Assembly (NCBI RefSeq): GCF_015679185.1
Contig: NZ_CP064939.1
Coordinates: 1,240,001 to 1,304,000, forward strand
Origin: Pedobacter endophyticus
Lineage (GTDB): Bacteria; Bacteroidota; Bacteroidia; Sphingobacteriales; Sphingobacteriaceae
DNA length: 64,000 bases
Direction of reading: 5' to 3'
The position numbers and the translations under genes were made by a program. Below are positions 24,322 to 37,781 of this stretch, piece by piece (position 1 is the stretch's first letter; each line of letters starts with the position of its first letter). Under the pieces are notes generated by a model. That model saw only the letters and a list, made by a program, of their open reading frames with translations. It did no database searches and was not told the origin of the DNA.

Positions 24322-24402
24322 AGAAATAAAAATGCCCCGCAGATAGGCGAGGCGCTAAATGTTTTCACAACGGAATAATCCTTATTGTGATTTGCTTTCT
24401 TT
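24322..24402 (-). ncRNA. tracrRNA of the type II-C CRISPR system
   Basis: Read on the minus strand, positions 24403-24385 give an anti-repeat, GAAAGAAAGCAAATCACAA. It is complementary, with one mismatch in 19, to the 5' part of the minus-strand repeat (GTTGTGATTTGCTTTC). It is followed by AAGGATTATTCC, GTTGTGAAAACAT and a terminator hairpin (GCCTCGC / GCGGGGC, 24353-24334) with a T-rich end at 24322-24333. A perfect -7 element is at 24409-24416, which places the RNA start near 24402 and gives an RNA of about 80 nt. The gene is divergent from cas9. This anti-repeat decides the crRNA strand: the array must be read on the minus strand. Confidence 0.88.
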
Positions 24403-24408
24403 CAATAC

Positions 24409-24416
24409 CAAAGATA
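24409..24416 (-). promoter_or_regulatory. -7 element of the tracrRNA gene
   Basis: Minus-strand TATCTTTG, a perfect TAnnTTTG match, immediately before the anti-repeat. No clear -33 element is seen. Confidence 0.7.
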
Positions 24417-24506
24417 GAATTTATTTCGATACATGAGATACGGGAAACCATAATTGGATAAACTTATTTTTTGTTAGCTTTAAAAAACCGCTTAAAACAA
24501 ACTATT

Positions 24507-27500
24507 ATGAAAAATATTTTAGGTCTCGACCTCGGCACCAATTCCATTGGCTGGGCGCTTATTCAGCAAGATTTCGAAAAAAAACAAGGTACAATCCTTG
24601 GAATGGGTAGTCGGATTATTCCCATGTCGCAAGATATTTTAGGCGATTTCGGAAAAGGAAATTCCGTATCTCAAACAGCTGAACGAACCAGCTATAGAGG
24701 TGTGAGGCGCTTGCGGGAACGATTTTTGTTGAGGCGAGAACGATTGCACCGCGTACTCAATATACTTAGCTTTCTACCGCAACACTATGCTGCGCAAATC
24801 GACTTCGAGAAGCGCTTAGGAAAATTTATAGATGAAAAAGAACCCAAGCTTGCCTATAGAACAGAATGGAATGAAGCGAAAGAAAAGGCGGAACATCATT
24901 TTATTTTTAAAAACGCTTTTGAAGAAATGTTAGCTGATTTTCAGCAACACCAGCCTCATGTTTTAATTAACAAGGACGGAGACGCAGCTTTAGTGCCCTA
25001 CGACTGGACTATTTATTATTTACGAAAGAAAGCGCTTACTAAAAAAATAAACAAGGAAGAACTGGCTTGGATTCTACTCAACTTTAATCAGAAACGCGGT
25101 TATTACCAGTTACGTGGCGAGGAAGAGGAAGAAAATCCCAACAAATTAATTGAGTTCCATTCGTTAAACGTTGTTGATGTTATTGCTGACGAACCGCAAA
25201 GAGGTAAAGCAGATATTTGGTACTCATTGGTTTTGGAGAATGGTTGGGTATATCGTCGGTCAAGCAAAACCCCATTGTTCGATTGGAAAGATAAAATTCA
25301 CGATTTTATAGTTACAACAGATCTCAACGACGATGGCTCTGTAAAAACCGACAAAGAGGGAAATGAGAAACGAAGTTTTCGGGCTCCGGGAGAGAGTGAT
25401 TGGACATTACTTAAAAAAAAGACGGAGCGGGAAATCGAGAAATCCGAAAAAACAGTAGGTACTTTCATATACGATACCTTACTTCAAGATCACAAACAAA
25501 AAATTAAGGGCAAATTGGTACGTACCATTGAACGCAAATTCTACAAAGATGAATTGGGTCAAATCATTCAGAAACAAAAGGAATTTCATACCGAATTGGA
25601 AAACGACGATTTGTACAACGATTGCGTACGTGAGCTTTACCGAAACAACGAAGCTCATCTGCTCCAGCTGAGTCAGAAAAACTTCACCCACCTTTTCATC
25701 AACGACATTATTTTCTATCAGCGGCCGCTTCGTAGTCAAAAGTCCTCTATTGGAAATTGTGGGTTAGAATACCGAACTTACAGGGATAACGAGGGCGTTG
25801 AACATAGGCAATATTTAAAGACCATCCCCAAGTCTAATCCCTATTATCAGGAATTTCGGGTTTGGCAATGGCTGTATAATCTTAAAATTTATCGCAAAGA
25901 TGACGATACGGATGTAACAGATAAATTGATTGGCACTACGAAGGACTTGGAGCAGCTTTTTGATTTTTTGATGGACCGAAGAGAGATAGATCAAAAAATT
26001 TTGATGAAGTATTTATTTTCCTCTTCTGATTTGAAAGGAAAAGCACTGACTACAGAGATAAATCAATACCGCTGGAACTATGTATATGATGCTGAAAAAG
26101 ATGTGTCAAAATCATATCCATGCAATGAAACTCGTGGTTTAATAAGCAGTCGGTTTGAAAAGGTAGACGGTGCTTCAGACAGCTTTTTAACCAAAGAAAT
26201 TGAGCAACAGCTTTGGCACCTGATTTATTCCGTTACCGACAAAACAGAATACGAAAAAGCGCTACGATCATTCGCTTCAAAGCACGCTTTGGACAAGGAT
26301 TCATTTGTGGAGGCCTTCAAAAAGTTTCCGCCATTCAAAAGCGAATATGGTTCTTTTTCGGAAAAAGCACTCAAAAAACTGCTTCCTTTAATGAGGCTGG
26401 GAAAGCATTGGGACGAAAAGCTCATCATTGCAAATAGCACAGCCTATTGGAATAATATTAGCAAGATACTGGAACGATTAGACAAAAAATCGAAATCTAT
26501 TACCGAAAAAGATAAGGAAGATTGGAATAAAACCATCAATACAAATCTAGAAGCTGAATTAAGCGCTTTTTTAGATGGTGAAGTACAGGCATTTCAAGGG
26601 TTGCGCCTTCATATCGCCCAATACCTTGTTTATGGCCGCCACGCTGAAGCGGCTGACACCAAAAGGTGGAACACTGTAAACGACTTGGAGAAATTTTTGG
26701 AAGAGTTTAAACAACACTCGCTTCGCAATCCTATTGTAGAGCAGGTCGTTACCGAAACGCTTCGGGTTGTAAAAGACATTTGGAAAAAATATGGCAATGG
26801 GATTAGAAATTTCTTCACTGAGATTCATGTTGAATTAGGACGAGAAATGAAAAATACGGCTGATAAGCGCAAGCAGTTGACGAATAGAATTTCTGAAAAT
26901 GAGAATACCAATTTACGCATTAAGGCCATGCTTATAGAAATGACGAATGATGACTCCGTATTCAACGTTCGCCCCTACTCCCCTATGCAGCAGGATATTT
27001 TAAAAGTATATGAAGAAGGCGTACTTAACTCAGCGATTGAAATTGATGATGAAATACTGAAAATCAGCAAAATGGCACAACCTTCTTCCTCGGATTTGAA
27101 AAGATATAAGCTTTGGCTGGAGCAAAAGTACCGTTCTCCTTACACCGGTGAAATTATTCCGCTAAATAAATTGTTTACGCCAGAGTACGAAATAGAACAT
27201 ATTATTCCTCAAAGCCGTTATTTTGACGACAGCCTAAGCAATAAAGTGATTTGCGAAGCGGCGGTGAATAAGTTAAAGGACAATCAGATGGGCTTGGCTT
27301 TTATCAAAAAATTTCCAGGCGAAATAGTACCGTTAGGAATGGGTAAATCGGTAAAGATTTTTAACGAAAACGCTTATGTAGATTTTGTAAAACACCATTA
27401 TGCTAAAAATAGGGGAAAACGCAATAAGCTTCTACTCGAAGAAATTCCGGAGGCAATGATAGAGCGGCAATTAAATGATACACGTTACATCAGTAAGTAT

Positions 27501-29033
27501 ATTTCAGGTCTGTTATCTAGCCTCGTTCGTGCCGAAGAAAACGACGAAGGTCCAAATTCGAAGTACGTTATTCCCGGTAATGGTAAAATAACTGGTGAGT
27601 TAAAACAAGATTGGGGCCTAAATGACATATGGAACGACTTGATTTTACCTCGTTTTGAGCGTTTCAATCAATTAACAGGAGAAACTCATTTTACAGCTTG
27701 GAACGAAAACCATCATAAGTACTTGCCTACGGTTCCGTTAGCGTTGTATAAAGGTTTTTCTAAAAAGAGAATCGACCACCGTCACCACGCCTTAGATGCG
27801 CTGGTAATTGCCTGTGCTACAAGGGAACATGTGAACCTCCTTAATAATAAACACGCCAAATCGAAAAACGAGCGTCACGATTTGAAACGAAATTTAATGC
27901 AGTTTGAAAGAACGGTGTATAAACATCCGCAAACTGGAGAAAGAATTGAAAGAGATGTAGCTAAAGCGTTTGAAGTGCCTTGGAATAGCTTTAAAGAGGA
28001 TGCCCGAAATGCTTTGAAAAAAATCGTCATCAGTTTTAAACAAAATCTCCGTGTAATTAATAAGGCTACCAATTATTACGAAAGTTTTAAGGATGAGGCT
28101 GGGAACTTGCGTGTTGACAAAGACGGCAAGGCTCAAAAAAGCTTTATAGAGCAGCAAAGTACCAACTGGGCAATTCGTAAAGCAATGCATAAAGAAACCG
28201 TATATGGAAAGGTTGATTTGCCACGAATCAAAGTTCCCAAAGGAAAAATTTTGACAGCTACACGAAAGTCGTTAGATAGTTCGTTTAACCTTAAATCTAT
28301 TGAAAATATCACGGATACAGGGATTCAAAAGATATTGAGGAACTATCTGGTCAGCAAGGATGGTGATTCTGAATTAGCGTTTTCTCCCGAGGGTGTAGAA
28401 GATTTGAATAAAAATATTCAACAATATAATGATGGTAAGGCACACCAGCCTATTTACAAAGTAAGGGTATTTGAGGTAGGAAGCAAGTTTCCTTTGGGAG
28501 AAAAAGGAAACAAGAGAGCAAAGTATGTTGAGGCCGCCAAAGGCACTAATTTATTTTTTGCCGTTTATTGGGATGAAGACAAACAAAAGCGAAATTATGA
28601 CACCATTCCACTCAACGAGGTCATTGAGCATCAAAAATGGCGAGCAACGTTGTCCAATGAAGAACGAAAAGACACGCCAATGATTCCGATAGATACTGAA
28701 AATGGGAAATTTCTGTTTAGTCTATCTCCTAACGATCTAGTCTACGTTCCCACCGAAGAGGAAAAGGATAGTATCGAACAGCTTGATTTTTCGAGTTTGA
28801 ATACTGAGCAGATCACACGCATTTATAAAATGGTCAGTAGTACAGGAAGCGAGTGCCATTTTATCCAGTCAACAATCGCCTCTTTAATTAAAAGCTATGA
28901 TGCAAAAAGCAAAGTTGGTGAAATGGGAAGCTTGAACAAATTGGAGATAACCATTGATACGAATCCGATTCGGATTAAAGAAACCTGTATCAAACTAAAA
29001 GTAGATCGTTTGGGCAATATCTCAAAGGCTTAA
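24507..29033 (+). CDS. cas9: Cas9 endonuclease, large type II-C form (about 1508 aa)
   Basis: Cas9 uses a crRNA-tracrRNA duplex to cut matching DNA. RuvC-I is at the N-terminus (ILGLDLGTNSIGWALI, D8), followed by an Arg-rich bridge helix (RTSYRGVRRLRERFLLRRERLH, about 57-78). RuvC-II has the IHVELGREMKN motif with E776. The HNH domain has EIEHIIPQSRYFDDS (E897, H898) with the downstream Asn residues. RuvC-III has HRHHALDALV (H1094, D1097). All catalytic residues appear intact. The ATG at 24507 is preferred to an in-frame TTG 36 bases upstream because it places RuvC-I right at the N-terminus. The size is at the upper end for II-C Cas9. cas1 starts 3 bp after the stop. Confidence 0.97.
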   Translation: MKNILGLDLGTNSIGWALIQQDFEKKQGTILGMGSRIIPMSQDILGDFGKGNSVSQTAERTSYRGVRRLRERFLLRRERLHRVLNILSFLPQHYAAQIDFEKRLGKFIDEKEPKLAYRTEWNEAKEKAEHHFIFKNAFEEMLADFQQHQPHVLINKDGDAALVPYDWTIYYLRKKALTKKINKEELAWILLNFNQKRGYYQLRGEEEEENPNKLIEFHSLNVVDVIADEPQRGKADIWYSLVLENGWVYRRSSKTPLFDWKDKIHDFIVTTDLNDDGSVKTDKEGNEKRSFRAPGESDWTLLKKKTEREIEKSEKTVGTFIYDTLLQDHKQKIKGKLVRTIERKFYKDELGQIIQKQKEFHTELENDDLYNDCVRELYRNNEAHLLQLSQKNFTHLFINDIIFYQRPLRSQKSSIGNCGLEYRTYRDNEGVEHRQYLKTIPKSNPYYQEFRVWQWLYNLKIYRKDDDTDVTDKLIGTTKDLEQLFDFLMDRREIDQKILMKYLFSSSDLKGKALTTEINQYRWNYVYDAEKDVSKSYPCNETRGLISSRFEKVDGASDSFLTKEIEQQLWHLIYSVTDKTEYEKALRSFASKHALDKDSFVEAFKKFPPFKSEYGSFSEKALKKLLPLMRLGKHWDEKLIIANSTAYWNNISKILERLDKKSKSITEKDKEDWNKTINTNLEAELSAFLDGEVQAFQGLRLHIAQYLVYGRHAEAADTKRWNTVNDLEKFLEEFKQHSLRNPIVEQVVTETLRVVKDIWKKYGNGIRNFFTEIHVELGREMKNTADKRKQLTNRISENENTNLRIKAMLIEMTNDDSVFNVRPYSPMQQDILKVYEEGVLNSAIEIDDEILKISKMAQPSSSDLKRYKLWLEQKYRSPYTGEIIPLNKLFTPEYEIEHIIPQSRYFDDSLSNKVICEAAVNKLKDNQMGLAFIKKFPGEIVPLGMGKSVKIFNENAYVDFVKHHYAKNRGKRNKLLLEEIPEAMIERQLNDTRYISKYISGLLSSLVRAEENDEGPNSKYVIPGNGKITGELKQDWGLNDIWNDLILPRFERFNQLTGETHFTAWNENHHKYLPTVPLALYKGFSKKRIDHRHHALDALVIACATREHVNLLNNKHAKSKNERHDLKRNLMQFERTVYKHPQTGERIERDVAKAFEVPWNSFKEDARNALKKIVISFKQNLRVINKATNYYESFKDEAGNLRVDKDGKAQKSFIEQQSTNWAIRKAMHKETVYGKVDLPRIKVPKGKILTATRKSLDSSFNLKSIENITDTGIQKILRNYLVSKDGDSELAFSPEGVEDLNKNIQQYNDGKAHQPIYKVRVFEVGSKFPLGEKGNKRAKYVEAAKGTNLFFAVYWDEDKQKRNYDTIPLNEVIEHQKWRATLSNEERKDTPMIPIDTENGKFLFSLSPNDLVYVPTEEEKDSIEQLDFSSLNTEQITRIYKMVSSTGSECHFIQSTIASLIKSYDAKSKVGEMGSLNKLEITIDTNPIRIKETCIKLKVDRLGNISKA

Positions 29034-29036
29034 CTA

Positions 29037-30065
29037 ATGATTAAAAGAACGCTTCATTTCAGTAACCCTGCCTATTTAAGTTTGCATCAAAACCAGCTTG
29101 CTATCGATTTACCTCATTTAAAATCATTAGGAGAAAAGGAATCCAAAAAATCAATTCCGATTGAAGATATTGGGATAATCATATTGGATAATCAACAGAT
29201 AACGATTACACACGGTTGCATTGCTGCATTGTTAGATAATAACGCTGCAATTATAACTTGCAACCAGAGCCGTCATCCCACTGGAATGATGCTCCCGATT
29301 GATGGGCATAATACCCAAAGTGAAAGGTTTCGTTATCAAATTGATGCTTCGCAACCACTTAAAAAACAATTATGGCAGCAAACCGTTCAAGCGAAAATAT
29401 TAAATCAGGCTGCTGTTCTTTTTAATCGAAATATTGCTTGCGAAAATATGGTGTATTGGGCAAAGTCTGTTCGTTCTGGAGACCCAGATAATTATGAAGG
29501 AAGAGCCGCAGCGTATTATTGGAAAAATGTTTTCCCGAAAAAGCTCGATTTCTTCCGCGGTCGTGAGGGAGATCCTCCAAATAATTTACTCAACTACGGT
29601 TATGCCATTTTAAGAGCTATTGTCGCCCGTGGTTTAGTTTGCTCGGGCTTACTCCCTACCCTTGGCATCCACCATCGAAATAAATATAATGCCTATTGCC
29701 TCGCGGATGATATTATGGAGCCTTATCGCCCCTATGTTGATGAAATTGTACTGGGAATTATAGATAGAGGAGAAAACTTTCTAGAACTTGGAACATCGAT
29801 TAAAACGCAACTTTTAGGTATTGCAACGGTGGATGTACAGTTTGAAAAGAGTACAAGCCCGCTCATGGTTGGCTTGCAAAGCACCACTTCTTCTCTTGCA
29901 AAATGTTATGAGGGAACAATTCGCCGAATTACCTATCCTATAATGACGAATTTTGATAACAAGCGAGGTTCCACTTATAAAGACAAAGAAGTTTTAAAGT
30001 CGATCCTCATAAATGAAATTACGGAATCTGGATTTACAAAACCTGAGGATGAATTACCCTTTTAG
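29037..30065 (+). CDS. cas1: CRISPR-associated endonuclease Cas1 (type II)
   Basis: Cas1 is the integrase of the spacer-acquisition complex. The metal-binding residues are visible: Glu in NYEGRAA (E154), His in LGIHHRNKYN (H212) and the acidic motif LADDIMEPYRP (224-230). Length 342 aa fits type II Cas1 proteins, somewhat longer than II-A relatives. It lies 3 bp after cas9 and is followed within a few bases by cas2, so the three form one operon. Confidence 0.97.
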   Translation: MIKRTLHFSNPAYLSLHQNQLAIDLPHLKSLGEKESKKSIPIEDIGIIILDNQQITITHGCIAALLDNNAAIITCNQSRHPTGMMLPIDGHNTQSERFRYQIDASQPLKKQLWQQTVQAKILNQAAVLFNRNIACENMVYWAKSVRSGDPDNYEGRAAAYYWKNVFPKKLDFFRGREGDPPNNLLNYGYAILRAIVARGLVCSGLLPTLGIHHRNKYNAYCLADDIMEPYRPYVDEIVLGIIDRGENFLELGTSIKTQLLGIATVDVQFEKSTSPLMVGLQSTTSSLAKCYEGTIRRITYPIMTNFDNKRGSTYKDKEVLKSILINEITESGFTKPEDELPF

Positions 30066-30398
<333 letters not shown>

Positions 30399-30431: not shown

Positions 30432-30468
30432 AAAAAAAATCCTGATGTTGATTCATCAGGATTTTTTT
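30432..30468. terminator. Bidirectional terminator between cas2 and the array
   Basis: A stem with AAATCCTGATG / CATCAGGATTT and a TTGATT loop is flanked by eight A on the left and seven T on the right. It can stop the cas operon on the plus strand and the crRNA precursor on the minus strand. Confidence 0.9.
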
Positions 30469-30521
30469 AATTCTAAATCTTTGATTAATGAACTGATATT
30501 TAACTAATTGACTTATGGTAT
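30469..30521. promoter_or_regulatory. CRISPR leader with an inverted partial repeat
   Basis: The 53 bp between terminator and first repeat are AT-rich and contain TCTTTGATT (30478-30486) and ACTGATATTTAAC (30492-30504). These are reverse complements of two blocks of repeat 1 (30541-30549 and 30527-30539). An RNA from here could fold into a 22-bp hairpin with repeat 1. This side is taken as the leader because the repeats are uniform here and degenerate at the far end. Confidence 0.65.
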
Positions 30522-33500
30522 GTTGTGTTAAATATCAGTAAATCAAAGAATGAAAGCAAATCACAACTCTCCACCGCCGCTGCGTATTCTTTGCCGGGTT
30601 GTGTTAAATATCAGTAAATCAAAGAATGAAAGCAAATCACAACAGCTTTCAATCTCTGAATCTTTTTCAGATAGTTGTGTTAAATATCAGTAAATCAAAG
30701 AATGAAAGCAAATCACAACCATACTCACCCCCGCCGGCATCGCCTCCTTGTTGTGTTAAATATCAGTAAATCAAAGAATGAAAGCAAATCACAACGTAGC
30801 AAGTTACGCCCAAAAATCTTACAAGGTTGTGTTAAATATCAGTAAATCAAAGAATGAAAGCAAATCACAACTCAACATGGTGGCGCTCAAAAAAGACTGT
30901 AGTTGTGTTAAATATCAGTAAATCAAAGAATGAAAGCAAATCACAACTTAGCTATTGCCATAGTTTTTAAATGTTTTGTTGTGTTAAATATCAGTAAATC
31001 AAAGAATGAAAGCAAATCACAACAATCTTTATGAACAGAATCCAATCCATTCTGTTGTGTTAAATATCAGTAAATCAAAGAATGAAAGCAAATCACAACC
31101 TTCTACAACTCAAATTGGCACTGTTACAAGTTGTGTTAAATATCAGTAAATCAAAGAATGAAAGCAAATCACAACTGCGAGCGCTCCAGCTGGCAGAGCA
31201 GCGTTGTTGTGTTAAATATCAGTAAATCAAAGAATGAAAGCAAATCACAACTGGGTATCGCCCACCTTTACACCGATTTCAGTTGTGTTAAATATCAGTA
31301 AATCAAAGAATGAAAGCAAATCACAACGGCGTGTCGCCTTTCTTAAACCTGACATATGTTGTGTTAAATATCAGTAAATCAAAGAATGAAAGCAAATCAC
31401 AACGGGGCGTGTTTTTCGCTTCTAATGCTTTATGTTGTGTTAAATATCAGTAAATCAAAGAATGAAAGCAAATCACAACATTGTTCAACCCAAAAGGCAC
31501 GGTTTAAAAGTTGTGTTAAATATCAGTAAATCAAAGAATGAAAGCAAATCACAACTTAAGGGGCGGAAAGGTCCCGCCCCTGGTTAGTTGTGTTAAATAT
31601 CAGTAAATCAAAGAATGAAAGCAAATCACAACCCGGGGATAACGCAAAAATTAACGACAACGTTGTGTTAAATATCAGTAAATCAAAGAATGAAAGCAAA
31701 TCACAACCCAGGCCCAGGGGCGTTAAACCCAGCGGCGGTTGTGTTAAATATCAGTAAATCAAAGAATGAAAGCAAATCACAACCAGGATTTAAAAATCGA
31801 AAAAGGTAATAAGTTGTGTTAAATATCAGTAAATCAAAGAATGAAAGCAAATCACAACGGTTAACATTAGCCTTTGTTACAACGTTTAGTTGTGTTAAAT
31901 ATCAGTAAATCAAAGAATGAAAGCAAATCACAACTGGTGTAATCCTGTGGTTTGATCTTCAACGTTGTGTTAAATATCAGTAAATCAAAGAATGAAAGCA
32001 AATCACAACACGTTCCTGAAACTTCTTTAGCCCAGGCAGTTGTGTTAAATATCAGTAAATCAAAGAATGAAAGCAAATCACAACGGTTGATAGTAAATTA
32101 ATTATGGTAACAAAGTTGTGTTAAATATCAGTAAATCAAAGAATGAAAGCAAATCACAACATTTAATAGCAGCGATTAGGCGTTGATATCGTTGTGTTAA
32201 ATATCAGTAAATCAAAGAATGAAAGCAAATCACAACTAGTTCCTACTGGAAAGATTGATGACGCGGGTTGTGTTAAATATCAGTAAATCAAAGAATGAAA
32301 GCAAATCACAACAGAAGCAAGGTGTATCTGTATGTACCTGATGTTGTGTTAAATATCAGTAAATCAAAGAATGAAAGCAAATCACAACTATTAGCCGAGG
32401 CTGAAACGGCTGAAAGAAAGTTGTGTTAAATATCAGTAAATCAAAGAATGAAAGCAAATCACAACACTAAGGGATAAATGTTGTTTAAAAGCTATGTTGT
32501 GTTAAATATCAGTAAATCAAAGAATGAAAGCAAATCACAACAATTTTTAGGCAATGAACGTCGTACTCTTTGTTGTGTTAAATATCAGTAAATCAAAGAA
32601 TGAAAGCAAATCACAACTTCTTTAAATTCCGGTAGGTTCAACTTCATGTTGTGTTAAATATCAGTAAATCAAAGAATGAAAGCAAATCACAACTACCAGT
32701 TAAGCGAACTTTATTTACGGATTGTTGTGTTAAATATCAGTAAATCAAAGAATGAAAGCAAATCACAACTTGGATAGGCTTTTGCGCCAGCCTTTTTTGT
32801 TGTGTTAAATATCAGTAAATCAAAGAATGAAAGCAAATCACAACGTAAAGCCTCATTAATATTTTGAGTGTCGAGTTGTGTTAAATATCAGTAAATCAAA
32901 GAATGAAAGCAAATCACAACGCGCCAGGCCATTTTAGCAGGCATGAGCGCGTTGTGTTAAATATCAGTAAATCAAAGAATGAAAGCAAATCACAACTGGC
33001 GGCTGGGACAACACATTCGCTTACCTGTTGTGTTAAATATCAGTAAATCAAAGAATGAAAGCAAATCACAACAGAAGCTGTTTAGTGCAACCCCCTAGCC
33101 CCGTTGTGTTAAATATCAGTAAATCAAAGAATGAAAGCAAATCACAACTAGATGTCGTTCAGCTTAATCTCGTTGGCGGTTGTGTTAAATATCAGTAAAT
33201 CAAAGAATGAAAGCAAATCACAACGGGGCCAAGGTTAAATCGGGGTATTCGGACGTTGTGTTAAATATCAGTAAATCAAAGAATGAAAGCAAATCACAAC
33301 TCATCAGGTTTAAAGCCTTATCAAATTCATGTTGTGTTAAATATCAGTAAATCAAAGAATGAAAGCAAATCACAACTAAGCTTGTTTTGATAAAATATTT
33401 TTTGTTGTTGTGTTAAATATCAGTAAATCAAAGAATGAAAGCAAATCACAACGAAACTCGGCGCTGGTATTGATTAAAAGTTGTTGTGTTAAATATCAGT

Positions 33501-36500
33501 AAATCAAAGAATGAAAGCAAATCACAACCGCTATCAGTTTCTTAAAGCTGCCAACGCTGTTGTGTTAAATATCAGTAAATCAAAGAATGAAAGCAAATCA
33601 CAACAAGCGGGTAAAAGTGGGCTGAGCGATGTTAGTTGTGTTAAATATCAGTAAATCAAAGAATGAAAGCAAATCACAACGAAAGCGAAGCGGGCGAACG
33701 ACTTTTAGTGTTGTGTTAAATATCAGTAAATCAAAGAATGAAAGCAAATCACAACGATAACCAACGAAACTAGCCCATATAGTTTGTTGTGTTAAATATC
33801 AGTAAATCAAAGAATGAAAGCAAATCACAACGATGCCCTGTTAAACGCTACAACTATATCGTTGTGTTAAATATCAGTAAATCAAAGAATGAAAGCAAAT
33901 CACAACTCAACACTCGCAACGGTTGTTGATCCTGCGTTGTGTTAAATATCAGTAAATCAAAGAATGAAAGCAAATCACAACAAAGGTGGTGCGAGGGTTT
34001 GATCGATTATGGTTGTGTTAAATATCAGTAAATCAAAGAATGAAAGCAAATCACAACTGAAGATTATTTATCTTATACTAATGCTTAGTTGTGTTAAATA
34101 TCAGTAAATCAAAGAATGAAAGCAAATCACAACTATTATTTGGTGGCGCCATTCGTGGTGGTAGTTGTGTTAAATATCAGTAAATCAAAGAATGAAAGCA
34201 AATCACAACGAACCGTAATAACTTATCATATCCTTTTCCGTTGTGTTAAATATCAGTAAATCAAAGAATGAAAGCAAATCACAACAGAAAATGCCAATTT
34301 TGAATTAGAAGAATTGTTGTGTTAAATATCAGTAAATCAAAGAATGAAAGCAAATCACAACAAAAGGGAAATTCACATTTCCAAGTACGGAGGTTGTGTT
34401 AAATATCAGTAAATCAAAGAATGAAAGCAAATCACAACCTGTTGATAAAAATTGTTTTATCCCTATATGTTGTGTTAAATATCAGTAAATCAAAGAATGA
34501 AAGCAAATCACAACTAAAGTCTCCAACTAAAAATGTTCCAACAGGTTGTGTTAAATATCAGTAAATCAAAGAATGAAAGCAAATCACAACTAGCCGATGC
34601 TTGATGTTTGACTACCTGCTGTTGTGTTAAATATCAGTAAATCAAAGAATGAAAGCAAATCACAACAATAAACGGTTTTTTCGTCTATCTCAATATGTTG
34701 TGTTAAATATCAGTAAATCAAAGAATGAAAGCAAATCACAACCACATTCTGGGCATTCCATACTCGCATCATGTTGTGTTAAATATCAGTAAATCAAAGA
34801 ATGAAAGCAAATCACAACCCTCCATGATAACATGCTTTAATTTGGTCAGTTGTGTTAAATATCAGTAAATCAAAGAATGAAAGCAAATCACAACTGTCCA
34901 TTACCAAAGTAATAGTGTCATAGGGTTGTGTTAAATATCAGTAAATCAAAGAATGAAAGCAAATCACAACGCCGCGCTGGGTATTTTTGGGGTTCAATCT
35001 GTTGTGTTAAATATCAGTAAATCAAAGAATGAAAGCAAATCACAACGGCTGGTCCCAGGTACCAAAGCATCAATATGTTGTGTTAAATATCAGTAAATCA
35101 AAGAATGAAAGCAAATCACAACATTCGACGTTTGTTAACAACTGGTCGTTTTGTTGTGTTAAATATCAGTAAATCAAAGAATGAAAGCAAATCACAACAA
35201 TCCAACGACCTGTTGTTACATTAGCTACGTTGTGTTAAATATCAGTAAATCAAAGAATGAAAGCAAATCACAACAGTTAATTCCGGTAAGATTAACATTA
35301 CTATGTTGTGTTAAATATCAGTAAATCAAAGAATGAAAGCAAATCACAACGTCCTGAGTAGCTTTATTCGCCTTCTGTTGGTTGTGTTAAATATCAGTAA
35401 ATCAAAGAATGAAAGCAAATCACAACTAATTTCAGAAGATGGTGTTGAAATTTTTGGTTGTGTTAAATATCAGTAAATCAAAGAATGAAAGCAAATCACA
35501 ACGTTGTTTATTGACAAATTCAACTAGCCTTCGTTGTGTTAAATATCAGTAAATCAAAGAATGAAAGCAAATCACAACTATAACAAAAACAAAAATAAAA
35601 AGACATGGTTGTGTTAAATATCAGTAAATCAAAGAATGAAAGCAAATCACAACGGTAATCGATTAATTTGAATGGCAAGTTAGGTTGTGTTAAATATCAG
35701 TAAATCAAAGAATGAAAGCAAATCACAACCCAGGAGCGCAAAGCGTATTTAAGCTCATCGTTGTGTTAAATATCAGTAAATCAAAGAATGAAAGCAAATC
35801 ACAACTCCCAAACTGGAAATGTTACCATCCCGGTCTGTTGTGTTAAATATCAGTAAATCAAAGAATGAAAGCAAATCACAACACTTCGGCATCTATTGGT
35901 AGCGGTTTATATGTTGTGTTAAATATCAGTAAATCAAAGAATGAAAGCAAATCACAACAACCTCGTAGCTGAATATATCGAGAAGAAGGTTGTGTTAAAT
36001 ATCAGTAAATCAAAGAATGAAAGCAAATCACAACAAGTAAAGGTTTTAGAAACCAAGCGTAAATGTTGTGTTAAATATCAGTAAATCAAAGAATGAAAGC
36101 AAATCACAACGTATCGAGGTAGATGAAAACGGTTTACATGGTTGTATTAAATATCAGTAAATCAAAGAATGAAAGCAAATCACAACCCAGTGGAGACAGC
36201 TCCTCATTCCTGAGTGGTTGTGTTAAATATCAGTAAATCAAAGAATGAAAGCAAATCACAACACTCAGCTTCGTTTTGCTTATTGAATTTGGTTGTGTTA
36301 AATATCAGTAAATCAAAGAATGAAAGCAAATCACAACTAGTGTTTGCTATTAAAGGATAAGCGTAATGTTGTGTTAAATATCAGTAAATCAAAGAATGAA
36401 AGCAAATCACAACCACGATTACCGGACATGCTAAAACTACTGCGTTGTGTTAAATATCAGTAAATCAAAGAATGAAAGCAAATCACAACCTCTTTTCTCT

Positions 36501-37781
36501 ATAGGTTTTAATGCCCAAGGTTGTGTTAAATATCAGTAAATCAAAGAATGAAAGCAAATCACAACGCTGTTACGACCTCCAGTTATGACTACGGTGTTGT
36601 GTTAAATATCAGTAAATCAAAGAATGAAAGCAAATCACAACAAGAGATTCGGCTTAAATTATTAATTTACTGTTGTGTTAAATATCAGTAAATCAAAGAA
36701 TGAAAGCAAATCACAACCAGTGCTGCATAAAAGATGAAGCTGCATAAGTTGTGTTAAATATCAGTAAATCAAAGAATGAAAGCAAATCACAACCAATACC
36801 TAATTGACCGCCGATGGTAGCGAGTTGTGTTAAATATCAGTAAATCAAAGAATGAAAGCAAATCACAACACCTGGTATATTCAGGATGGCAAAGAATCAG
36901 TTGTGTTAAATATCAGTAAATCAAAGAATGAAAGCAAATCACAACTCCAACTCGGACGATATGTTATTTCGAAATGTTGTGTTAAATATCAGTAAATCAA
37001 AGAATGAAAGCAAATCACAACATCCTCCTCAAAGCCTTTTCAACAGCCACGGTTGTTGTAAATATCAGTAGTTCAAAGATTGAAAGCAAATCACAACAGA
37101 CATCACTTATGAATTTAACATGCCGGGTTGTTGTAAATATCAGTAGTTCAAAGATTGAAAGCAAATCACAACTAAAGCTGAACTTTTTCCCGCATCCCAG
37201 TAGTTGTTGTGAATATCAGTAGTTCAAAGATTGAAAGCAAATCACAACAAAGATAAGATAACTGCCTTATTAGCAAAAAGTTGTTGTAAATATCAGTAGT
37301 TCAAAGATTGAAAGCAAATCACAACAGAAAGATAATCTTGCTATTCGTGAAGAATGTTGTTGTAAATATCAGTAGTTCAAAGATTGAAAGCAAATCACAA
37401 CTGAAACAGCAAAAACTATGAAGCCTATTGCGTTGTTGTAAATATCAGTAGTTCAAAGATTGAAAGCAAATCACAACACGCTTGTATTTCGGTGTCGTTT
37501 AAACCGCGTTGTTGTAAATATCAGTAGTTCAAAGATTGAAAGCAAATCACAACATGCAGGTGGTTTAACAGTATCGGGTAATCGTTGTTGTAAATATCAG
37601 TAAAGCAATACTTGAAAGCAAATCACAACCCGTATTTACTCATGTCATGCCTAAGTTCGGTTGTTGTAAATATCAGTAGTTCAAAGATTGAAAGCAAATC
37701 ACAACGGGATGCCTTTACTACTTGGATAGCACGCTGTTGTTGTAAATATCAATAGTTCAAAGATTGAAAGCAAATCATAAC
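30522..37781 (-). CRISPR. Type II-C CRISPR array, 96 repeats of 46 bp and 95 spacers
   Basis: I walked the array repeat by repeat: 96 copies, spacers 30 bp with a minority of 29 or 31. In crRNA sense (minus strand) each repeat starts GTTGTGATTTGCTTTC, the tracrRNA-pairing part, and ends TATTTAACACAAC. By eye, repeats 1-86 (30522-37021) are identical except one base in repeat 75 (36141). Repeats 87-96 (37052-37781) form a second class differing at plus-strand repeat positions 6, 8, 20, 21 and 29. In that class repeat 94 has further changes and repeat 96, the last, is degenerate. The leader is on the cas2 side, so the newest spacers are near 30.6 kb. No spacer could be matched to a target without a search. 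Confidence 0.98.

Follow-up and report, generated by a model that had tools for sequence, protein, structure and literature searches.

A repeat switch in a type II-C CRISPR array of Pedobacter endophyticus and a leader element that mirrors the leader-facing half of the repeat

We analysed a 64,000-nucleotide stretch of the genome of Pedobacter endophyticus (contig NZ_CP064939.1, positions 1,240,001 to 1,304,000; hereafter the window), which holds a complete type II-C locus of clustered regularly interspaced short palindromic repeats (CRISPR). The locus consists of a predicted trans-activating CRISPR RNA (tracrRNA), cas9, cas1, cas2, a flanked hairpin, a leader and the repeat array; our subject is the array, whose repeat switches from one class to another, and an element of the leader that is an inverted, imperfect copy of part of the repeat. 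The genes and the hairpin are listed here, with the strand where one applies.

About 24322..24416, minus strand: predicted tracrRNA, with promoter-like TATCTTTG at 24416-24409, the anti-repeat at 24399-24384, and a G+C-rich hairpin followed by a T run
24471..29033, plus strand: cas9 (TIGR01865, E 6e-130; HNH_4, RuvC_III and bridge helix)
29037..30065, plus strand: cas1 (TIGR03639, type II Cas1, E 4e-91)
30066..30398, plus strand: cas2 (TIGR01573, E 5e-20)
30432..30468: hairpin with an A run before and a T run after it, terminator-like on both strands by sequence and fold

Assignment to type II-C was based on the detection of Cas9, Cas1 and Cas2, all by profile or domain matches, and of an anti-repeat upstream of cas9 that is complementary to the repeat, with a predicted duplex of −26.8 kcal/mol for the class-1 repeat described below. 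There was no room for a further gene, such as csn2 or cas4, in the run from cas9 through cas1 and cas2 to the array; the flanking open reading frames (ORFs) were not searched by family. A search of the 5.43-Mb genome for the 16-mer of the repeat, allowing at most one mismatch, gave 96 forward sites and one reverse site, the tracrRNA anti-repeat, and the array is therefore the only one in the genome that carries this 16-mer. Comparison of the array with 50,697 phage records gave no protospacer match, and comparison of the leader with plasmids gave no match.

The array (30522-37781) contains 96 repeats of 46 base pairs (bp) and 95 spacers of 29-31 bp, 79 of them 30 bp long and none of them duplicated. 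Its repeats fall into two classes.

30522..30567: repeat 1, taken as the template for new repeats, a polarity suggested by the decayed far end and by published II-C acquisition
30522..37021: 86 class-1 repeats, 85 of them identical, repeat 75 (36141-36186) having one change
37052..37781: 10 class-2 repeats, likely the oldest, with repeats 94 (37584-37629) and 96 (37736-37781) altered

Class 1 has the letters G6 T7 A20 A21 A29 (repeats 1-86, the altered repeat 75 apart) and class 2 the letters T6 G7 G20 T21 T29 (repeats 87-96, the altered repeat 94 apart). The initial annotation had described repeats 1-86 as uniform but for one base in repeat 75, and alignment of all 96 repeats bore this out. 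It had also named five differing positions; there are five, including 20, 21 and 29, but the first two are the neighbours 6 and 7 (GT versus TG) and not 6 and 8. As it had stated, all five lie outside bases 31-46, which pair with the tracrRNA; position 29 falls within a short predicted extension of the pairing. The Bacteroidetes-type −7 box has the consensus TAnnTTTG, and T29, found in all ten class-2 repeats and in both old repeats of a second array discussed below (L090), brings the −7 box inside the repeat one base nearer to it. Seven of the ten class-2 repeats are identical; changes were seen in repeats 89 (one), 94 (six) and 96 (two). Repeat 94 carries class-1 letters at positions 20-21 in a background that is otherwise class 2, and we considered it as an intermediate. 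This was rejected because its block AAAGCAA (bases 19-25) is identical to class-2 bases 32-38, so that repeat 94 seems to be a single old repeat affected by a local copying error; multi-base copying errors do happen in this array. With repeat 94 so explained, the array contains no intermediate form, as had been claimed. Repeat 96 is changed in its tracrRNA half, with a predicted pairing of −22.8 kcal/mol versus −28.1 kcal/mol for class 2, and since decay of this kind is reported for the oldest II-C repeats in the accessible part of PMC12080349, the far end is likely the old end of the array. Insertion at the cas2 end, with transcription towards that end, has been reported for II-C systems of other species, as far as the accessible sources go, and the decayed far end is consistent with insertion at the cas2 end.

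The leader is 53 bp long (30469-30521) and lies between the hairpin and repeat 1. Three parts of it are used below.

30478..30486: outer part of the leader arm, TCTTTGATT, an inverted copy of repeat bases 20-28
30492..30504: inner part of the leader arm, ACTGATATTTAAC, an inverted copy of repeat bases 6-18 (match to own repeat, p 0.0025 versus shuffled leaders)
30505..30521: loop and leader-repeat junction, Pedobacter-like, with 2/17 differences from P. chinensis

The leader is complementary to the adjacent repeat, as in the leader-repeat hairpins of types II-A and VI: folded as RNA, its arms and repeat 1 give a hairpin of 13 + 9 bp with a 22-base loop, and the DNA fold is much alike. The inverted repeat fits class 1 at positions 6, 7, 20 and 21 and class 2 at position 29, so that the annotated match to the new class holds if class 1 is the new one and fails if repeats 87-96 are meant. 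Position 29 says little about the class match, because the same class-2-fitting letter is present, as read by hand, in the leaders of most Pedobacter relatives with A29 repeats (L030 and L032 differ). We also considered the arm as a mere copy of the promoter; this was disfavoured, as the arm appears to change along with the species-specific letters of the repeat.

We compared leaders with repeats in two sets of loci. The family set comprised 46 Sphingobacteriaceae loci collected by Cas1, reduced to 43 by the loss of L046, L049 and L065, which had no readable array beside cas1; a first comparison of leader arms covered 29 of 32 loci. Each leader was scored against the inverted leader-facing repeat half of every locus, and own and other repeats were permuted. 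Own matches summed to 1046 versus a mean of 849.5 (standard deviation (sd) 20.0), a value reached in none of 20,000 permutations. When loci were paired with their nearest neighbour by Cas1 and the repeats of the two differed (21 pairs), the own repeat beat the swapped one in 14 pairs, lost in 4 and tied in 3, and controls in the same pairs were even (6/8/7 for direct and 8/7/6 for reversed orientation). Compared with dinucleotide-shuffled leaders, 28 of the 43 loci reached p 0.05 and 18 reached 0.01; the controls at p 0.05 gave 2/43 for direct orientation and 0/43 for the tracrRNA half. The leader side scored z 8.4 in the 35 family arrays whose far end was readable. The second set came from a search of 395 genomes of the class, in which Cas1 matches, many of them weak, were found in 109 including the window genome; the 108 others yielded 69 loci, 45 of which passed the array filter, their repeat starts being assigned by script and possibly off by a base or two. 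The repeats of this set are very different, and the own sum was again high (843 versus 619.1, sd 20.1, z 11.1, 0/20,000), with controls at z 0.6 for direct orientation and z 0.4 for the tracrRNA half. Clear cases are L134 (TCCTTGAAATTCAGAGATTCGTG against CACGAATCTCTGAATTCAAAGA), L133, L151, L161 and L173. Nearest pairs of the second set (22) gave 15 for the own repeat, 5 against and 2 ties, and over both sets 29 of the 38 decided pairs favoured it (p 0.0008). An order-level search for further loci added none. We concluded that, as a set, leaders across Bacteroidia match their own repeats better than those of other loci. A search of the open-access literature, with most papers judged from search listings, found no such leader element in II-C.

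Could these matches arise without any function, from chance resemblance of A+T-rich sequences together with shared descent? Leaders and repeats are A+T-rich, several loci such as L054 and L057 show nothing, and some controls lean slightly the same way; the dinucleotide-preserving shuffles, the own-versus-swapped pairs and the tracrRNA-half controls nevertheless argue otherwise, as do the long matches in unrelated repeats such as those of L134 and L161. We therefore regard this explanation, already disfavoured, as very improbable.

The complementarity might instead act in RNA, the leader arm pairing with repeat 1 in the outgoing transcript and, for example, protecting the RNA end or silencing RNA from a promoter in repeat 1. 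In the window, the strand of the CRISPR RNA (crRNA) does fold strongly (−41.6 kcal/mol, z −7.45, terminator hairpin included), and single-sequence folds of 42 family loci gave at least 10 pairs between the leader and the first 30 bases of the repeat in 42/42 loci on the plus strand and 38/42 on the crRNA strand, but these were better than shuffled leaders at p 0.05 in only 17/42 and 13/42, respectively. Twelve loci chosen for a good match yielded a consensus hairpin that was stronger for the crRNA strand (−15.1 versus −6.2), whereas RNAalifold, run for both strands on a fixed-register alignment of 42 loci (L059, with a 47-bp repeat, was left out), found no consensus structure, indicating that strict pairing is not conserved. 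In that register 68.1% of cells pair, and sliding it lowers the share to 30-43%; 41 cells had changed on both sides, versus 26.7 (sd 3.9, 0/500). Mismatches in own pairs were 18 A-C versus 6 G-T in the family set and 13 G-T versus 8 A-C in the class set, with swapped pairs broadly similar, and thus showed no clear one-strand G-U preference beyond that of swapped pairs. As an RNA helix, the leader element lacks strict conservation. RNA hairpins between leader and repeat have been described for II-A and type VI (PMC13187072, accessible part); in II-C, however, the extra crRNA comes from the other side of the array (PMC12080349, likewise in part), so that the known purpose does not apply. On balance we think a role as an RNA hairpin improbable.

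Distances between repeats, Cas1 and Cas9 were compared for the 34 of the 46 family loci that had a usable Cas9, Cas1 and repeat, some of the Cas9 frames being partial. The excluded loci were five without a large ORF upstream of cas1, five set aside by hand because of another or a short ORF (L073, L088, L090, L095 and L098, of which only L073 and L088 were put through the family search), and two removed by script filters. Distance in repeat bases 1-29 followed Cas1 distance (r 0.62, 0/2000 permutations) and was unrelated to Cas9 distance (r −0.01, 1007/2000), and we rejected the idea that the repeat class follows the type of Cas9. Cas1 and Cas9 distances were themselves unrelated (r −0.016); because Cas9 distances between groups are near saturation, this shows only that Cas9 has been exchanged frequently. 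The tracrRNA-pairing half of the repeat hardly varied among the family loci, irrespective of their Cas9, and an anti-repeat with at most 3 mismatches was found near the start of cas9 in 30 of 31 loci, compared with 6 of 31 for the same scan inside cas9. Thus, it appears that Cas9 and the tracrRNA move together and plug into one nearly constant half of the repeat, the other half remaining associated with Cas1 and the leader. The annotation had proposed that selection for tracrRNA pairing shaped the switch; the pairing half is indeed kept, but because it is nearly constant in the family whatever the Cas9, its retention does not explain the switch.

Some further features of these loci were seen. 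Among family loci L072-L117, Cas9 proteins of many groups lie upstream of closely related Cas1-Cas2, and identity to the window Cas9 is about 22-33% for the proteins that do not belong to its group. Directly upstream of cas1, in the place of cas9, two loci carry a gene of about 875 amino acids with ResIII and DEAD helicase domains (L073:3843-6467, plus strand, and L088:13431-16100, minus strand); similar ORFs are present in L090 and L098, the family check covering two of the four.

The nearest relative by Cas1 was P. chinensis (93%), which by ClpB (96%) was tied with genome G082 among 20 genomes; its Cas9 has 22% identity to that of the window. In ungapped comparison with P. chinensis the leader differed at 0/8 positions before the arm, 13/28 in the arm and 2/17 in the loop, and the repeat at 0/5 (bases 1-5), 4/24 (6-29) and 0/17 (30-46). 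Seven other Pedobacter loci sharing one repeat type differ pairwise at 0-10 arm and 1-6 loop positions. The closest leader arm among 15 loci, with 5 differences, is that of L040 from another genus, whose loop differs at 10/17 positions. As the upstream leader and the loop are Pedobacter-like, a block import from another genus is disfavoured and one from an unsampled congener is not; the arms would either have changed together in place or have come from an unsampled congener with a similar loop. Replacement of leader and first repeat in one recombination event, as originally proposed, thus agrees with the data in that the two turned over together, and lacks a donor, no class-1 repeats having been found in the searches described next. 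A single arm-to-arm copying event was also considered and is insufficient, since the class-1 letters are present in neither of the relatives' arms.

An exact pattern admitting both classes, run against 84,980 species with one genome per species, found 21 stretches. Class 1 was absent from these stretches, from 144 other genomes of the genus and from IMG/VR, and the usual state of the repeat in Pedobacter is TG/GT/A, that is, class 2 except for position 29; from these two observations we infer that class 1 is the derived form and that class 2 lies close to the ancestral one. States between the classes are fixed in other species, GG/GT/A in L009 and GG/AA/A, one step from class 1, in L008, L014 and L019. 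Graded states, which had been named as evidence against a single event, are therefore present between species and absent from the window array. Among 44 readable family arrays, 7 of them cut by the end of a stretch or contig, three had at least two far-end repeats in a block that departs from repeat 1 at several positions: the window (10 repeats, 5 positions), L090 (112 + 2 repeats, positions 5, 7, 23 and 29) and L092 (2 repeats, a one-base shift). The old form in L090 resembles the repeats of its relatives, and this second similar case indicates that abrupt switches recur. L106 has two late repeats with one change, L107 has many minor internal variants of a different sort, and the remaining arrays are mostly uniform save for single repeats or the last one.

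Other peculiarities of these arrays may be recorded here. In L107, with 140 repeats, the variants stand together as two or three successive copies, a pattern that duplication of blocks would give. Other sequence, possibly insertion elements, breaks up the last repeat at the far end of L081 and of L106, and pieces of repeat lie beyond it; L105 is similar, with no repeat pieces within the 100 bases shown. In L080 and L082 the last repeat is continued by its own tracrRNA-pairing half in inverted form (GAAAGCAAATTTTCGC-TTC-GCGAAAATTTGCTTTC); such a hairpin could keep the tracrRNA away from the extra repeat.

Two accounts of the switch bear on these results. In the first, homologous recombination with a class-1 congener brought in the leader and repeat 1, or much of the leader-proximal array, and left ten resident class-2 repeats. 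The abruptness of the change, with no graded repeat, the heavy shuffling of family II-C loci evident from the unrelated Cas1 and Cas9 distances, and the second abrupt switch in L090 are all in its favour. It is at odds with the absence of class 1 from every collection searched, with the lack of any sign of foreign origin in cas1 (P. chinensis being nearest by Cas1 and nearest or tied by ClpB) and with the Pedobacter-like upstream leader and loop, and we consider it unlikely. In the second, repeat 1 and the leader arm changed one position at a time, and the few repeats of mixed state were afterwards lost through recombination among repeats. Repeat arrays are well known to undergo deletions, the mixed states GG/GT/A and GG/AA/A are fixed in other species, and Pedobacter arms vary while the repeat type is one and the same; but for any mixed-state repeat of this array a local copying error is the better explanation, and both multi-position substitution switches, in the window and in L090, lack intermediates. 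Such stepwise drift we likewise hold to be rather unlikely.

With a confidence that falls a little short of even, we propose that, when this array switched its repeat, repeat 1 and the leader arm turned over jointly, as partners predicted to be read by Cas1-Cas2. Most likely the leader element is a recognition element by which Cas1-Cas2 would find the insertion end, since it is located there, is a mirror image of the repeat half that tracks Cas1, and does not extend to the tracrRNA half; it would act at the level of DNA, in recognising or shaping the insertion site. The array would grow at the cas2 end by copying repeat 1, and once repeat 1 and the leader arm had changed, all later repeats would be of the new class. 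A change in the repeat would presumably take over most easily if the leader arm followed, and this would account for the match of leader to repeat in every species. The changes themselves may have originated in one multi-base event, in several quick steps with loss of repeats, or by import from an unsampled congener.

Several results weigh against this proposal. The arm of L035 differs from other Pedobacter arms at 7-10 of 28 positions although its repeat bases 6-29 are identical, and as all the high values involve L035, arms can evidently change while the repeat stays. The trailer side, a control, was not quite null in the 35 family arrays (z 1.9, 614/20,000). Taken singly, only 12 of the 45 second-set loci passed p 0.05, with controls at 5/45 (direct) and 2/45 (tracrRNA half), and the direct-orientation control of the second-set pairs also leaned to the own repeat, 13 to 6. 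Besides the missing RNAalifold consensus, there was no excess of pairs with a change on both sides (8 versus 6.7 in shuffles, 125/500), and the covariation score in the fixed register (0.115) was barely above those of slides −1 (0.096) and +1 (0.107). Finally, the agreement of the leader-facing half with Cas1 may reflect shared descent only.

We would go one step further only with considerable doubt, and suggest as a possibility that the Bacteroidia II-C repeat has two parts: a shared plug for the tracrRNA, into which unrelated, exchangeable Cas9-tracrRNA cassettes would fit, and a leader-mirrored, co-evolving lock for Cas1-Cas2 that would let the integrase know which array end belongs to it, the switch being a changed lock. 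Our results tell apart two tasks of the repeat, insertion and the guiding of Cas9, and offer a reason why a repeat can switch at several positions and stay usable. For the question of how II-C integrases recognise their own array, a leader mirroring its own repeat is a concrete and testable candidate.

Known systems offer likenesses to these features and differences from them. In Flavobacterium columnare the junctions of two arrays served by one Cas1, II-C and VI-B, have no similarity, and motifs far from the junction have been suggested (PMC8092290, accessible part); if true, the mirror rule could explain how one Cas1-Cas2 serves different repeats. Template switching at inverted repeats with multi-base changes (PMC8604942, in the part available) resembles the present case in that both arms change and the loop stays, and differs in that the arms of relatives lack the class-1 letters, so that one arm-to-arm copy would not suffice. 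The accessible part of PMC9067536 treats structured RNAs in CRISPR operons and names no such II-C leader element. PMC12080349, in the sections available, looked at the II-C array end opposite to the leader element; repeat 96 of the window is like the decayed extra repeats described there, being changed in the tracrRNA half and predicted to pair less strongly, but such decay leaves unexplained the run of seven identical and three altered class-2 repeats. In type VI (Cas13) arrays of several subtypes a leader stretch is likewise complementary to the adjacent repeat, and the hairpin, formed with the first repeat of the transcript, blocks an extra crRNA (PMC13187072, accessible part). In II-C, by contrast, transcription runs towards the insertion end and the extra crRNA arises at the other end; because repeat 1 is the last in the published order of transcription, blocking an extra crRNA is unlikely to be the purpose here. 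The II-A leader, too, has complementarity to its neighbouring repeat, again at the insertion end (Liao et al. 2022, as cited in the accessible parts of PMC12080349 and PMC13187072), but that hairpin interferes with tracrRNA hybridisation, whereas an arm of the kind found in the window avoids the tracrRNA-pairing half, as the second-set control for that half indicates.

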